DNA of 64,000 nt from Micromonospora halophytica (GTDB taxonomy: Bacteria > Actinomycetota > Actinomycetes > Mycobacteriales > Micromonosporaceae). The position numbers and the translations under genes are program-made. The notes under the pieces are model-generated. The model was not told where the DNA came from, ran no database searches, and saw only the letters and a list, made by a program, of their open reading frames with translations. The DNA lies in assembly GCF_900090245.1 (NCBI RefSeq), contig NZ_FMDN01000006.1, positions 1-64,000 on the forward strand, given 5' to 3'. The stretch's first letter is position 1; every line of letters begins with the position of its first letter. Shown here in pieces: positions 41,975-50,849 of the stretch.

Positions 41975-43369
41975 GTGGCAGTTGAGGTGTCCGTCATCAC
42001 GACGTCGTCGCTCGGCGACCGCAGCTACCTGGCCACGGACGGGCGGGTGGCGGTCGTCGTCGATCCGCAACGTGACATCGACCGGGTCATGTATCTGGCG
42101 GGGGAGATGGGCGTGCGGATCACCCATGTGGTGGAGACGCACATCCACAACGACTACGTCTCCGGTGGGCTGGAACTGGCCCGGATCACCGGTGCCCACT
42201 ACCTGGTCGCCGCGGCCGACGAGGTCGGTTTCGACCGTCTCGCGGTCTCCGACGGCGACACGGTGCCGGTCTCGGACACCCTGCGGTTGCGCGTGATCGG
42301 CACGCCGGGTCACACCTTCCACCACCTGTCGTACGTGCTGGACGAGGTCGACGGCGGCGACTGGCGGCCGGTCGGCGTGTTCACCGGCGGTTCGTTGCTG
42401 TTCGGCACGACCGGTCGTACCGACCTGCTCGGCCAGCAGCACGCCCACGAACTGGCCCACCACCAGTACGCCTCGGCGAAGCGCCTGGCGGACCTGCTCC
42501 CCGACGGCGCGCAGGTCTGGCCGACCCACGGCTTCGGCAGCTTCTGCTCGGCCAGCCAGGCCGACGCGCCCGAGTCGACCATCGGCCGGGAGAAGCAGGC
42601 CAACCCGGTGCTGCGGCTGGCCGCGGACGACTTCGTCACCGAGACCCTCGCCGGGCTGGACGCCTACCCGGCGTACTACGCCCACATGGGCGTGGCGAAC
42701 TTCGCCGGACCCGCGCCGGTGGACCTCACCCCGGTGAACCGGGCCGACGCCGCCGAGCTGCGGGAGCGGATCGCCGCCGGGCAGTGGGTGGTGGACCTGC
42801 GGCACCGCAAGGCGTACGCGACGTCGCACCTCGCCGGCACGGTCAGCCTCGGCCTGGACGGGCCGATGTCGACCTGGCTCGGTTGGCTGATCGACTGGGG
42901 TGTGCCGATCACCCTGCTCGCCGAGACGGCGGAGCAGGTCGCCGACGCCCAGCGTGAACTGGTGCGCATCGGCATCGACCGGCCCGCCGCGCAGGCCACC
43001 GGCCAGCCCGAGCAGTGGGCGGCCGAGCCGGAGCGGCTGCGGGAGCTGCGGTTGGCCGACTTCCCCGCGCTGGCCGCCGCCCGCGCCGGCAACACCCCGG
43101 CCGGCCTGCCCGACCCGCAGGTCGTGCTGGACGTGCGGATGACCAACGAGTGGAAGGCCGGGCACATCGAGGGCGCGGTGCACGTGCCGCTGCCCGACCT
43201 GCCCAAGCGGCTGGCCGAGGTGCCCGACGGCGCGGTCTGGGTGCACTGCGGCTCCGGCTACCGTGCCACCGCCGCCGCGTCGCTGCTGGCCAACGCCGGG
43301 CGCGAGGTCGTCGTCATCGACGACAAGTTCGACCAGGCCGGTGCGGCCGGCGTGGCCCTGACCGACTGA
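41975..43369 (+). CDS. MBL-fold/rhodanese sulfurtransferase (CstB-like)
   Basis: 464 residues. The MBL domain has ETHIHNDYVSGG and GTPGHTFHHL. The usual TGDALL segment reads FTGGSLLFGTTGRTDL, so the Asp that binds iron in ETHE1 is not at its normal place. A degenerate rhodanese (~255-335) is followed by an active one (~370-460) with Cys in VWVHCGSGYRAT. It is related to CstB/Blh-type proteins of sulfide detoxification. GTG 41975 follows GAGGAAGGGAG. It lies directly under operator 4. Confidence 0.88.
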   Translation: MAVEVSVITTSSLGDRSYLATDGRVAVVVDPQRDIDRVMYLAGEMGVRITHVVETHIHNDYVSGGLELARITGAHYLVAAADEVGFDRLAVSDGDTVPVSDTLRLRVIGTPGHTFHHLSYVLDEVDGGDWRPVGVFTGGSLLFGTTGRTDLLGQQHAHELAHHQYASAKRLADLLPDGAQVWPTHGFGSFCSASQADAPESTIGREKQANPVLRLAADDFVTETLAGLDAYPAYYAHMGVANFAGPAPVDLTPVNRADAAELRERIAAGQWVVDLRHRKAYATSHLAGTVSLGLDGPMSTWLGWLIDWGVPITLLAETAEQVADAQRELVRIGIDRPAAQATGQPEQWAAEPERLRELRLADFPALAAARAGNTPAGLPDPQVVLDVRMTNEWKAGHIEGAVHVPLPDLPKRLAEVPDGAVWVHCGSGYRATAAASLLANAGREVVVIDDKFDQAGAAGVALTD

Positions 43370-43375
43370 AACCTC

Positions 43376-43405
43376 GTCGGGGCGGCGCCTGGGCGCCGCC
43401 CCGAC
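43376..43405 (+). terminator. hairpin between MBL-rhodanese and rhodanese-DUF2892 genes
   Basis: Perfect 14-bp arms (43376-43389 and 43392-43405) with almost no loop, 6 bases after the stop. It probably ends or attenuates the first transcript before the next gene. Confidence 0.7.
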
Positions 43406-43438
43406 CCACCCTGCCCCCCGAACACCGAAAGAGGAGAC

Positions 43439-44032
43439 ATGAGCACCAATCCCGCGACCCTGAACGCCGCCGAGCTCCGCGAGCTGATCGACTCCGGCCG
43501 GGTGCCCCGCCTGCTCGACGTGCGTACCCCGGCCGAGTTCGAGACATCGCACATCCCGGGCGCCTACAACGTCCCGCTGGACCTGCTCAAGGAGCACCGC
43601 GAGGAGCTGCGCCGGCACCTCGACGAGGACGTGGTGCTGATCTGCCGCTCCGGCGCCCGCGCCACCCAGGCCGAGCAGGCGCTCGCCGGGGTCGGGCTGC
43701 CGAACCTCAAGGTGCTCAACGGCGGGATGATGGCCTGGCAGGCCTCGAACGCGCCGATCAAGCAGGGCGCCCCGCGCTGGGACCTGGAGCGGCAGGTCCG
43801 CCTGGTCGCCGGTTCGATCGTCCTGGTCAGCATCCTGGCTTCGGTGTTCGTCCCCGGCCTGAAGTGGGTCGCCGGGTTCATCGGCGCCGGGCTGACCTTC
43901 GCCGCCCTGACCAACACCTGCGCGATGGGCATGATGCTCGGCAAGCTGCCCTACAACCGGGGCGCCAGCTGCGACCTGGACACCATCGTCGGCCAGCTCC
44001 GCGAGGGACCCGCAGCGAAGGCACGGGCATGA
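43439..44032 (+). CDS. rhodanese-DUF2892 membrane sulfurtransferase
   Basis: 197 residues. The N-terminal rhodanese domain (~5-105) has LLDVRTPAEFETSHIPGAYN and the Cys loop LICRSGARATQ. The C-terminal DUF2892 part (~120-180) has two membrane segments (VRLVAGSIVLVSILASVFV and WVAGFIGAGLTFAALTNTC). It would move sulfane sulfur at the membrane, next to the exporter gene. ATG with AAAGAGGAG upstream. It is coupled to the TauE/SafE gene by ATGA. Confidence 0.9.
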   Translation: MSTNPATLNAAELRELIDSGRVPRLLDVRTPAEFETSHIPGAYNVPLDLLKEHREELRRHLDEDVVLICRSGARATQAEQALAGVGLPNLKVLNGGMMAWQASNAPIKQGAPRWDLERQVRLVAGSIVLVSILASVFVPGLKWVAGFIGAGLTFAALTNTCAMGMMLGKLPYNRGASCDLDTIVGQLREGPAAKARA

Positions 44033-45069: not shown

Positions 45070-45729
45070 TCACCAGGCGTAGGTGACCGAGATGGTGACG
45101 TTGGGGCAGTTGTTCGCCCAACTGGTCAGGGCGCTCTTCTCGGCGCTGTCGACGGTCAGCCGCCAGCGGATCTTGGTGGCGACCCACTCGTTGACGTAGC
45201 GGCAGCGGGCCGAGGCGTACGGCGGGAGCCAGGTGGCCGGGTCCCGGTCGCCCTTGGCCTGGTTGACGTTGTCCGTCACCGCGACCAGGGAACGGCGGTC
45301 GCCCAGGTCGTTGGCGTACGCCTGGCGGCGGCTGCTGGTCCAGTTGCGCGCGCCGGAGTCCCACGCCTCGGCGAGCGGGACCATGTGGTCGATGTCGAGG
45401 TCGCTGGTGAGGGTCCAGTAGGCGTTGTCGTAGTAGGAGTACCAGCGGCCGCCGGAGAGCGTGCAGGTGCCGCTCACGGTGGGGGCGGAGACCGCCTCGG
45501 CGAGCAGCACCTCGTTGCGGGTGTGGCAACCGTCGCCGTCGGCGTCGATCCAGTGCCGGAACAGGTCGCGGCCGTAGCCGGTGCGGACCTCGGTGGCGAC
45601 CGGGAGCCCGGCGACCGCGGTGGTCAGCGGGGCGGAGTATCCGGCGGCCGAGGCGGGGTGGGCGAGGCCGAGGGTGACGGCCAGGGCGGCGGCGAGGGTG
45701 AGTGCCGTCGTACGCAGCGTGCGGGTCAT
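45070..45729 (-). CDS. secreted HNH-family nuclease
   Basis: 219 residues. A signal peptide (~28 residues, ending HPASAAG) is followed by a GmrSD/DUF1524-like HNH domain: GRDLFRHWIDADGDGCHTRN, then the HNH core LDIDHMVPLAEAWDSGA, and DNVNQAKGDRDPATWLPP. CRYVNEWVATKIRW is typical of the secreted actinobacterial group. It probably degrades external DNA. ATG 45729 was chosen because it starts the signal peptide. No immunity gene is nearby. Confidence 0.88.
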   Translation of the reverse strand: MTRTLRTTALTLAAALAVTLGLAHPASAAGYSAPLTTAVAGLPVATEVRTGYGRDLFRHWIDADGDGCHTRNEVLLAEAVSAPTVSGTCTLSGGRWYSYYDNAYWTLTSDLDIDHMVPLAEAWDSGARNWTSSRRQAYANDLGDRRSLVAVTDNVNQAKGDRDPATWLPPYASARCRYVNEWVATKIRWRLTVDSAEKSALTSWANNCPNVTISVTYAW

Positions 45730-45868
45730 GGTGCTCCGTCCGGTGAGGGGGCGTGGGTACCAGCTCACATATGGACAGAGATTGATGCGAATATCAAGAT
45801 TGGCTCTGTGAACAGCGGGCGACGCAGCGTTGTCGATCCGATGACACCCGGCGTCCGGGCGGGCCGCC

Positions 45869-49422: not shown

Positions 49423-49491
49423 GCCACCGACGCCGCCGTCCCGCCGTAAACCGGTGGGCGGCGGCACCGTCGTCGCGGTACCGTCGCAGGC

Positions 49492-49557
49492 ATGCAGATC
49501 AGGCGCAGCACCGCCGCGGCCGCGCGAGCTTCCCGCTCGCCGGTTGCCGCCGCCTGA
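49492..49557 (+). CDS. alanine-rich leader peptide
   Basis: 21 codons from ATG 49492: M-Q-I-R-R-S-T, then four Ala codons (GCC GCG GCC GCG, 49513-49524), R-A-S-R-S-P-V, and three more Ala before TGA 49555-49557. Eight of 21 residues are Ala. No clear ribosome site; TACCGT at 49479-49484 ends 7 bases before the ATG, as for leaderless transcripts. It is followed by competing hairpins and an AlaRS-like gene, the layout of ribosome-mediated attenuation. Confidence 0.65.
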   Translation: MQIRRSTAAAARASRSPVAAA

Positions 49558-49602
49558 TCTCCTGACCCTCGACAGCCGGCGACCGGAAACGGTCCGCCGG
49601 CT
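49524..49602 (+). promoter_or_regulatory. putative alanine-responsive transcription attenuator
   Basis: Hairpin 1:2 is GCGAG (49524-49528) with CTCGC (49536-49540). The antiterminator 2:3 is TCGCCGGTTG (49537-49546) with CAGCCGGCGA (49573-49582), ten pairs including one G-U. The terminator 3:4 is 49574-49585 with 49590-49602, a GAAA loop and a one-base bulge. The three are mutually exclusive. A ribosome stalled on the Ala codons at 49513-49524 would mask arm 1 and favour the antiterminator. Confidence 0.6.
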
Positions 49603-49676
49603 TCGTGCTGTCTGCCCAGGCGTCCTGCCCGGGGCGGCGGACCGCCTCCGGTCGCGCCCACCGGAAGGCCACCGCC

Positions 49677-50849
49677 ATGACACCCGAGCAGATCCTGCAC
49701 ACCTTCCTCGACCACCACCACCGGCGCGGACACCGCGACGCGCCGGAGAGCACGCTGGTCCCGCCGCCGGGCGACCCGGTGCTCTTCACCACCTCCGGGA
49801 TGCATCCGCTGACGCCCTACCTCGAGGGGCGGCCCCACCCGGGCGGCCGGCGGCTGGTCAACGTCCAGCGTTGCCTGCGCACCACCGACCTGGACGAGGT
49901 CGGCGACCGCACCCACCTGACCGTCTTCGACATGCTCGGCTCCTGGTCGCTCGGGGACTACGGCATCGCCGAGAGCCTGCGCTGGGGGCACGAACTGCTC
50001 GTCGACGGCTTCGGCCTCGACCCGGGCCGGCTGCACGCGACCGTCTTCGGCGGCGACGACCAGGTCGGCCCCGACGAGACCGCGTGGCGGACCTGGACGG
50101 AACTCGGCGTCCCGGTCGAGGAGACCGGCGACGACAACTGGTGGTCCAACGGCCCGACCGGGCCGTGCGGGCCGGACTCGGAGATCTTCGTGTGGACCGG
50201 CGACGGCCCGCCCACCGGCACCCCCGGCACCGACGACCGGTGGACCGAGGTGTGGAACCACGTGCAGATGCGCCACCACCGGCACCCCGACGGCCGGCTC
50301 ACGACACTGCCGCAGCCGAACATCGACACCGGGATGGGCCTGGAACGGCTGGAGATGGTGCTGCGGGGCGACCGGTCGGTCTACGAGGGCGCGGGGCTGC
50401 GGCCCTGGGTCGACGCCGTCGGCGACCGGTGGCCCCTGGACGAGGTGTCGCTCCGGGTCGTCTGCGACCACCTGCGCTCCGCCGTCGTGGTGCTCGGCGA
50501 CGGCGTGCGGCCGTCGGCCACCGGACGGGGGTACGTGCTGCGCCGGCTGGTCCGCCGGGCGTTGACCGTGCTGTGGCGCGACGACCCGTCCCGGACGCTG
50601 ACCGACCTGCCGCCCGGGTTGTCCGGGGACACGCTGCGCCGGTTCCGCCAGCGCGGCGACATCGCCGCGCTGCGCGACGTCCTCGCCGACGAGGAGCGCC
50701 GCTTCCGCGGACTGGTCGGCCGCGGGCGGCCGATCGTGGCGCGGCTGCGGTCGCGGGGACCGCTGGGCGACGCGGACTACCGCTGGCTGCACGACACCCA
50801 CGGGCTGCCGCGCGACCTGGTCGACGGCCTGCTCGGCGGGGCCGGCTGA
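49677..50849 (+). CDS. stand-alone alanyl-tRNA synthetase-like catalytic domain protein
   Basis: 390 residues; a full AlaRS is about 880. Class II AlaRS motifs are present: LFTTSGMHPLTPYLEG, VQRCLRTTDLDEVGDRTH and FDMLGSWSLGDYG (motif 2 region), WWSNGPTGPCGPDSEIF, the motif 3 IDTGMGLERLEMVLRG, and GRGYVLRRLVRRAL. It ends just after WLHDTHGLPRDLV, which corresponds to YDTYGFPLDLT of AlaRS. The editing and C-Ala domains are therefore absent. It could charge tRNA-Ala or a carrier, or be an antibiotic-insensitive or regulatory copy. GGAAGG precedes ATG 49677. The upstream attenuator fits alanine control. Confidence 0.82.
   Translation: MTPEQILHTFLDHHHRRGHRDAPESTLVPPPGDPVLFTTSGMHPLTPYLEGRPHPGGRRLVNVQRCLRTTDLDEVGDRTHLTVFDMLGSWSLGDYGIAESLRWGHELLVDGFGLDPGRLHATVFGGDDQVGPDETAWRTWTELGVPVEETGDDNWWSNGPTGPCGPDSEIFVWTGDGPPTGTPGTDDRWTEVWNHVQMRHHRHPDGRLTTLPQPNIDTGMGLERLEMVLRGDRSVYEGAGLRPWVDAVGDRWPLDEVSLRVVCDHLRSAVVVLGDGVRPSATGRGYVLRRLVRRALTVLWRDDPSRTLTDLPPGLSGDTLRRFRQRGDIAALRDVLADEERRFRGLVGRGRPIVARLRSRGPLGDADYRWLHDTHGLPRDLVDGLLGGAG

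Follow-up and report, generated by a model that had tools for sequence, protein, structure and literature searches.

Why does an actinomycete whose genome encodes a separate full-length alanyl-tRNA synthetase (AlaRS) keep, behind a short alanine-rich reading frame, a second and much smaller AlaRS-like gene, and how is this gene switched on? The question is raised by a locus of Micromonospora halophytica (assembly GCF_900090245.1, contig NZ_FMDN01000006.1), which lies at 49492-50849 of the 64,000 nts analyzed here (positions 1 to 64,000 of the contig, hereafter the window, whose numbering is used throughout; the features of the locus are all on the plus strand). A first-pass annotation of the window proposed that the gene is controlled by attenuation of the trp or his type, and this proposal is supported by comparative evidence: the leader open reading frame (ORF), a set of mutually exclusive RNA pairings and the AlaRS-like gene are conserved in Micromonospora, Streptomyces, Streptacidiphilus and Nocardia. 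The locus is probably an alaL-type ribosome-mediated transcription attenuator preceding an auxiliary, truncated gene of the alaS2 type, expressed from a promoter that resembles those of WblC/WhiB7 targets. Attenuation itself is hardly in doubt, and alanine is the likely signal.

The leader ORF (49492-49557) encodes MQIRRSTAAAARASRSPVAAA-stop, in which eight of the 21 codons specify Ala, as the first-pass annotation had read it, and the AlaRS-like gene follows at 49677-50849. The comparison rests on 85 loci that encode the protein family, namely 30 of 48 members from the genus and 55 of 66 loci from a second search, the remaining 11 of which encode AlaRS of other kinds (33-41% identity). The leader ORF and the terminator are present at 84 of the 85 loci; at the one miss, L056, the contig ends within the leader, and the leader end and the terminator are visible. 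Some genomes are represented twice among these loci, and the 84 leaders were cut to 51 at 92% identity; these 51 form the set for the pair and codon counts given below. The leaders of two families, f11 and f48 (L119 and L116), were read by eye and stand outside the pair counts.

The RNA from leader to terminator (49492-49610, 119 nts) folds at -68.5 kcal/mol with a z-score of -5.2, and none of 200 shuffled sequences folds as well. Three pairings (1:2, 2:3 and 3:4) had been proposed within it, and over the 51 leaders they are indeed mutually exclusive and conserved, although the register of 2:3 and the extent of 1:2 had to be corrected and a basal helix was added. The 1:2 pairing, previously placed at 49524-49540, exists and is longer: arm 1 (49516-49529), which overlaps the control Ala codons, forms 13 pairs, with one bulge, with arm 2 (49535-49547), and 97.4% of the cells are paired. 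The antiterminator 2:3 had been drawn as ten pairs joining 49537-49546 to 49573-49582. All ten can form in the window; across the set of 51, however, pair 9 is broken in 50 leaders, pair 8 in 11 and pair 10 in seven, without compensatory change, and this register was rejected. The conserved register instead consists of nine pairs between CCGGUUGCC in arm 2 (49540-49548) and GGCGACCGG in arm 3 (49578-49586), with 98.7% of cells paired and a covariation score reached by none of 500 shuffles; one of its pairs changes from U-A to C-G in three leaders and is a C-A mismatch in five. The 3:4 terminator, expected at 49574-49602, was recovered as the hairpin GCCGGCGACCG-GAAA-CGGUCCGCCGGC at 49575-49601, in which 95.3% of cells are paired, 25 cells are compensatory (0 of 500 shuffles) and a single inner pair is open in 21 leaders. 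Finally, the basal helix pairs 49496-49505 with 49551-49560, which brings the two ends of the leader ORF together and encloses 1:2. Its eight core pairs are formed in 77.7% of cells, 22 cells being compensatory, and none of 500 shuffles scored as high; such a helix would keep arm 2 shut as long as the leader is untranslated. A search of Rfam with the region returned no family at its gathering score, and a T-box was not matched in the 5′ region, where the only Rfam match up to an E-value of 1, RF00520, fell short of its cut-off (20.7 versus 50 bits, E 0.32).

The Ala codons are conserved as well, so that the lack of conservation of codons and pairings which the first-pass annotation had named as the evidence that would count against it was not found. 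Numbered around an invariant CGA codon, Ala occupies position -3 in 48 of 51 leaders, -1 in 50 and +1 in all 51, codons -7 to -4 being variable. At -3, Ala is encoded with four different third bases, and up to the control point the share of GCN is 28% in frame versus 13% in the other two frames. The consequences of a stalled ribosome were modelled by masking the RNA to 15 nts past the first base of the P site (an assumed footprint) and folding the remainder to the end of arm 3. In this model, 2:3 forms with at least 5 bp in 51 of 51 leaders when the A-site codon lies at -6 to +1, in 39% at +2 and in none from +3 onward, which agrees with the idea that a stall on the Ala codons covers arm 1 and exposes arm 2. 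In the window, Ala occupies codons 8-11 and 13 of the control region, each of which yields a 2:3 probability of at least 0.84 when a ribosome stalls there; codons 6, 7 and 12 behave similarly or nearly so (0.77, 0.88 and 0.97).

A covariance model, R1, was built from the 51 leaders to describe their distribution. The window genome (G000) contains eight R1 matches at E<=1, with a single strong one (6.5e-29); further use of the leader elsewhere in this genome was rejected, because the next two matches (1.5e-4 and 6.3e-4) resemble chance terminator hairpins; the five others have E 0.08-0.68. In a sample of the class, 12 of 394 genomes encode the protein (E<=1e-100), and the same 12 carry a leader match with E below 1e-6, adjoining the gene on the same strand. 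Twelve other genomes, in which R1 reaches E<=1e-3 with weak scores only, lack such a protein. In all, 14 R1 matches are weak (E 2.8e-6 to 7.5e-4), 12 of them in the protein-less genomes and two in genomes where a strong match is present as well; of the nine that were inspected, eight look like chance and one like a relic. The second sample, referred to as Streptomyces-type, comprised 295 genomes of one genus, that of G216, whose leader and protein are Streptomyces-like. Among these, 66 have the protein, with one internal TGA in the gene of three of them, and 67 have a leader at E<=1e-10, the two lists differing only in G585. This agreement indicates that, within the genomes searched, the leader goes with the AlaRS-like gene. 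Only the best first-look candidates were scored with R1 (150 in the window genome and 9 to 12 per genome in the samples), hence weak true copies of the leader could be missed.

Several loci show signs of actual or possible decay. In G585, the copy of the AlaRS-like gene has decayed, and the leader and terminator before it are intact (L165, G585:C1:3255935-3258224). The relic mentioned above (L127:1501-1610, G535) lacks both ATG and stop and is probably what remains of a leader; its genome is of the Streptomyces type and does not encode the protein at E<=1e-100. At L048, L079, L082 and L099, the frames end early or shift, through decay or sequencing error, and the leader and terminator are still present.

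The promoter of the locus resembles those of WblC/WhiB7 targets in its layout. WblC targets were described as carrying a GAAAWY box, 3 nts, a -35 box (TKGMNN), 16-19 bp and a TANNNT -10 box (PMC7157823). In the window, an AT-rich box, GTAAAC (49446-49451), occupies the place of the WblC/WhiB7 box; 3 nts downstream begins the putative -35 box TGGGCG (49455-49460), assigned by alignment and by the consensus with one mismatch, and 18 nts further lies the -10 box TACCGT (49479-49484), so that the spacing fits the WblC layout. Upstream DNA was sufficient for 50 of the 51 non-redundant leaders: GAAA stands at the place of the box, 31-34 nts before the -10 box, in 30 of these 50 regions (shuffled mean 3.5, maximum 9), and a complete GAAAWY in 14 (shuffled mean 0.8, maximum 3). 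TA...T is found at the -10 place in 81 of the 84 leaders, a count made by a script that favoured leader starts with such a box. Since TACCGT ends just 7 nts ahead of the leader ATG, a leaderless transcript is expected. In Micromonospora, WblC may be regarded as a candidate regulator of the locus.

Taken together, these features would allow the following sequence of events. Transcription would begin at the leader ATG or close to it, giving a leaderless RNA. As long as no ribosome translates the leader, arm 2 would be locked by 1:2 and the basal helix, and the 3:4 terminator would form. An undelayed ribosome would reach the leader stop codon and cover arm 2, which would again lead to 3:4. A ribosome waiting with one of the Ala codons 8-11 or 13 in its A site would cover arm 1 and free arm 2; before arm 4 has been transcribed, the freed arm would pair with arm 3, and RNA polymerase would proceed into alaS2. 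The comparison shows that codons, pairings and promoter layout are conserved and that the gene and its leader are closely linked; the Ala-tRNA signal and the co-transcriptional timing are inferred. The AlaRS-like enzyme is very probably switched on as a back-up when ribosomes stall, because charged tRNA-Ala is lacking or under antibiotic stress.

The gene product is a 390-residue protein made of the catalytic domain and the start of the tRNA-recognition domain. As the first-pass annotation had stated, it lacks the editing and C-Ala domains: the match to the Pfam family tRNA-synt_2c (1.6e-77) covers no more than positions 2-404 of its 552-position profile, and the full AlaRS model TIGR00344 reaches 272.7 bits against a cut-off of 457.05, over positions 2-402 of 847 only. 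The predicted structure (pLDDT 90.4) resembles the catalytic fragment of E. coli AlaRS, 3hxu, with a Z of 40.1 and a root-mean-square deviation of 3.4 over 384 aligned residues. Residues were counted in 51 members with whole frames, L048, L079, L081, L082 and L099 having been dropped for broken or cut frames, and the catalytic R, W, N, D, G and R are kept in all 51. In a phylogenetic tree, the family forms one clade (100/100), apart from the host AlaRS and without a supported sister. Descent from the host's own alaS is unsupported, as the latter clusters with other AlaRS. A sister relationship with the short AlaRS of the type NF002436/PRK01584 (a 595-position model) is hinted at by motifs, such as the GMHPL detail that this type has too, but lacks support in the tree. 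Two such proteins, L086 (601 residues) and L092 (597 residues), share 41% and 34% identity with the window protein and differ from it in extending about 180 residues beyond the catalytic part. Most likely, the enzyme, which retains the activation residues, would make extra Ala-tRNA within a stress programme and so serve continued translation.

A number of observations weigh against this interpretation of the locus. A stall frees 2:3 when the RNA extends to arm 3, whereas at equilibrium the full window transcript retains 3:4 in every case (P 0.82-0.95), that of a stalled ribosome included. The attenuation model consequently requires co-transcriptional timing, as the trp attenuation model likewise does. 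Earlier stalls also free 2:3 (in 43% of leaders at -7 and in 14-17% at -8 to -11), and one of 13 leaders inspected, L085, forms 2:3 without a ribosome. The alignment revealed compensatory changes in 2:3, 3:4 and the basal helix but not in 1:2, where covariation is no higher than in shuffles (102 and 64 of 500). Furthermore, the window AT box differs from GAAAWY by one base, and no U-run follows the terminator in the window sequence; attenuators without a U-rich stretch, for example trpL2, are listed for S. lividans (PMC8079986). As to the codons, the Arg codon CGA is invariant in the control region (51 of 51), so that conservation alone leaves Arg as a possible signal, and Thr codons also occur in the control region of the Streptomyces leaders. 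The Ala codons lie within the pairing sequence, hence RNA constraint may account for part of their conservation, and towards the leader's end further conserved Ala codons occupy places where a stall cannot help. The exceptions are Met at -3 in three leaders and Pro at -1 in one; an f11 leader, read by eye, has Gly at -1. In the protein, the remainder of the tRNA-recognition domain is absent. N303 and D400 in AlaRS numbering contact the G3:U70 pair; the equivalent of N303 is Ala in the window protein, and no more than 33 of 51 members have Asn there.

One alternative is that the Ala-rich ORF and its hairpins arose by chance in GC-rich sequence and that the promoter is the sole control. GC-rich DNA does yield many Ala codons and hairpins, and the terminator has no U-run; this explanation is nonetheless scarcely credible in view of the folding z-score, the compensatory changes in three helices, the co-occurrence of leader and gene across the genome samples and the listing by RNA-seq of the S. 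lividans leader (PMC8079986). A different reading accepts the attenuator and questions its signal: it would sense a general slowing of ribosomes, caused for instance by a translation-blocking antibiotic, and the Ala codons would result from the GC-rich arms. It gains from the invariance of CGA, which equals that of the Ala codons, from the model, in which a stall anywhere between codons -6 and +1 suffices, and from S. coelicolor, in which alaS2 depends on tetracycline and WblC and wblC itself has an attenuator with an upstream ORF (PMC7157823). Against it stand an Ala codon at -3 that is kept with four third bases while -7 to -4 vary widely, the roughly twofold enrichment of GCN in frame and the nature of the controlled gene, which encodes an AlaRS. 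General slowing as the signal therefore appears rather unlikely, and Ala-tRNA is preferred.

The acceptor of the activated alanine is a separate matter, on which the main switch does not depend. In the proposal that the attenuation is real and that the enzyme supplies activated alanine to something other than bulk tRNA-Ala, such as a carrier protein or a small molecule, the missing part of the tRNA-recognition domain and the loss of the N303 equivalent in 18 of 51 members, the window included, find a ready explanation, and amino acid:carrier protein ligases are indeed class II aminoacyl-tRNA synthetase homologues without tRNA-binding domains (PMC9437257). This remains a minority view that deserves attention, against which stand the many translation genes of the WblC regulon (PMC7157823) and the lack of an evident partner gene: even the most widespread neighbour cluster is confined to at most 7 of the 37 Streptomyces loci, as judged by heuristic gene calls from third-position GC with some short flanks. 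An operon partner was rejected on the same grounds. The Micromonospora loci have common surroundings, with clusters in 9 to 12 loci. The D400 equivalent, a presumed G3:U70 contact, is moreover an Asp in 50 of 51 members, which speaks for a tRNA, and tRNA-Ala is moderately favoured as the main acceptor. AlaRS recognises transfer-messenger RNA (tmRNA) via its acceptor stem, so that an AlaRS without the C-Ala and editing parts would suit tmRNA. Hence the enzyme could be specialised for ribosome rescue, charging tmRNA, and perhaps providing Ala-tRNA for Ala tails, rather than charging bulk tRNA-Ala; we consider this improbable. SmpB is named among the WblC-activated products in the same paper as alaS2 (PMC7157823). 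If true, stalling on Ala codons would be directly coupled to the supply of Ala-tmRNA.

As for the known systems, S. lividans TK24 has an alaL-alaS locus (SLIV_01313-SLIV_01315) in which a leader, MNVIGRNIFATARATSSPVAAA-stop, precedes alaS, among the attenuators identified by RNA-seq, and which its authors called an attenuator type not earlier described in bacteria (PMC8079986). This leader is a member of the family to which the Streptomyces leaders described here belong; it has three Ala codons in the control window versus five in the window leader. The excerpts of that account give no arms, covariation, synthetase truncation or members beyond S. lividans (PMC8079986); the S. lividans alaS presumably belongs to the AlaRS-like family. 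In S. coelicolor, alaS2 (SCO7600) is WblC- and tetracycline-dependent and alaS (SCO1501) is not (PMC7157823). It is a second AlaRS gene beside a housekeeping alaS with the WblC promoter layout, as at the loci described here, whereas the excerpts of PMC7157823 mention no attenuator and the window box is one base different. SCO7600 is probably the orthologue of the window AlaRS-like gene, and because alaS2 is part of the WblC/WhiB7 antibiotic-stress regulon (PMC7157823), the use of the enzyme, which the first-pass annotation had left open, is narrowed. In the open-licence literature searched and the excerpts cited, no description was found of the arms, of the truncation of an alaS2-type gene or of Micromonospora members.

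The closest precedent is S. coelicolor trpRS1, an auxiliary TrpRS gene under attenuation: Vecchione and Sello are said to have described its ribosome-mediated control in 2010. It combines a TrpRS with Trp codons, whereas a truncated AlaRS is combined with Ala codons here. We take SCO3334 to be trpRS1, and we know of no matching antibiotic for the AlaRS-like enzyme. The trpS gene SCO3334 is also activated by WblC (PMC7157823), and TrpRS1 resists indolmycin (PMC9437257). In ascamycin biosynthesis, AcmF is a truncated AlaRS-like protein and AcmD an extra, resistant copy of AlaRS (PMC12945691). In AcmF, the catalytic Asn and Asp are replaced (N219Q, D232E; PMC12945691), whereas 51 of 51 members of the present family keep both and in this respect do not match an aminoacyl transferase of the AcmF type. 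Unlike for AcmF and AcmD, no common biosynthetic neighbourhood was seen at the loci compared here.

Relatives of the gene with 60-80% identity are also found on eight plasmid records of Streptomyces and Streptantibioticus, including NC_016113.1, NC_017585.1 and NZ_CP109481.1; four of these records annotate an alanine--tRNA ligase-related protein and four show no listed gene. The presence of the AlaRS-like gene on large plasmids fits with its varying chromosomal neighbours.

Downstream of the attenuator, the ribosome-binding site of the AlaRS-like gene (GGAAGG, 49663-49668) can pair with the sequence just upstream, in a possible, weakly supported hairpin at 49645-49668 predicted by folding, and in many loci a similar pairing could form with different letters. 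In the window, the Shine-Dalgarno sequence is paired with a probability of 0.83, a value equalled in 5 of 60 shuffles. Over the 48 of 51 leaders with a recognisable Shine-Dalgarno sequence, the mean is 0.78 versus 0.62 in shuffles, a tendency only, as several loci do not exceed their own shuffles. Such a hairpin would perhaps add a second, translational layer of control.

Elsewhere in the window, an ORF on the minus strand (45070-45768) has in its translation a signal-peptide-like start and a DIDHMVPLAEAW stretch, presumably the motif of a secreted HNH-type nuclease. At 41975-44032, two ORFs resemble, by their translations only, metallo-hydrolase/rhodanese and rhodanese proteins of sulfide handling, and they are followed by a TauE-like permease frame, likewise read from its translation.

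The kind of attenuator, represented by alaL of S. lividans, and the stress-regulated alaS2 are already known. At the locus described here, one gene combines a stress-type promoter, a leader that apparently reads Ala-tRNA and a shortened synthetase that has no proofreading domain, and it thus offers a compact and testable case in which translation stress and amino-acid supply converge. If Ala-tRNA is the signal, alanine would be confirmed as an amino acid that leader peptides read across a broad range of actinomycetes, and the charging of tRNA-Ala could be followed with a reporter. The enzyme itself raises the questions of how small a working AlaRS can be and of whether stressed cells tolerate Ala-tRNA that has not been proofread.

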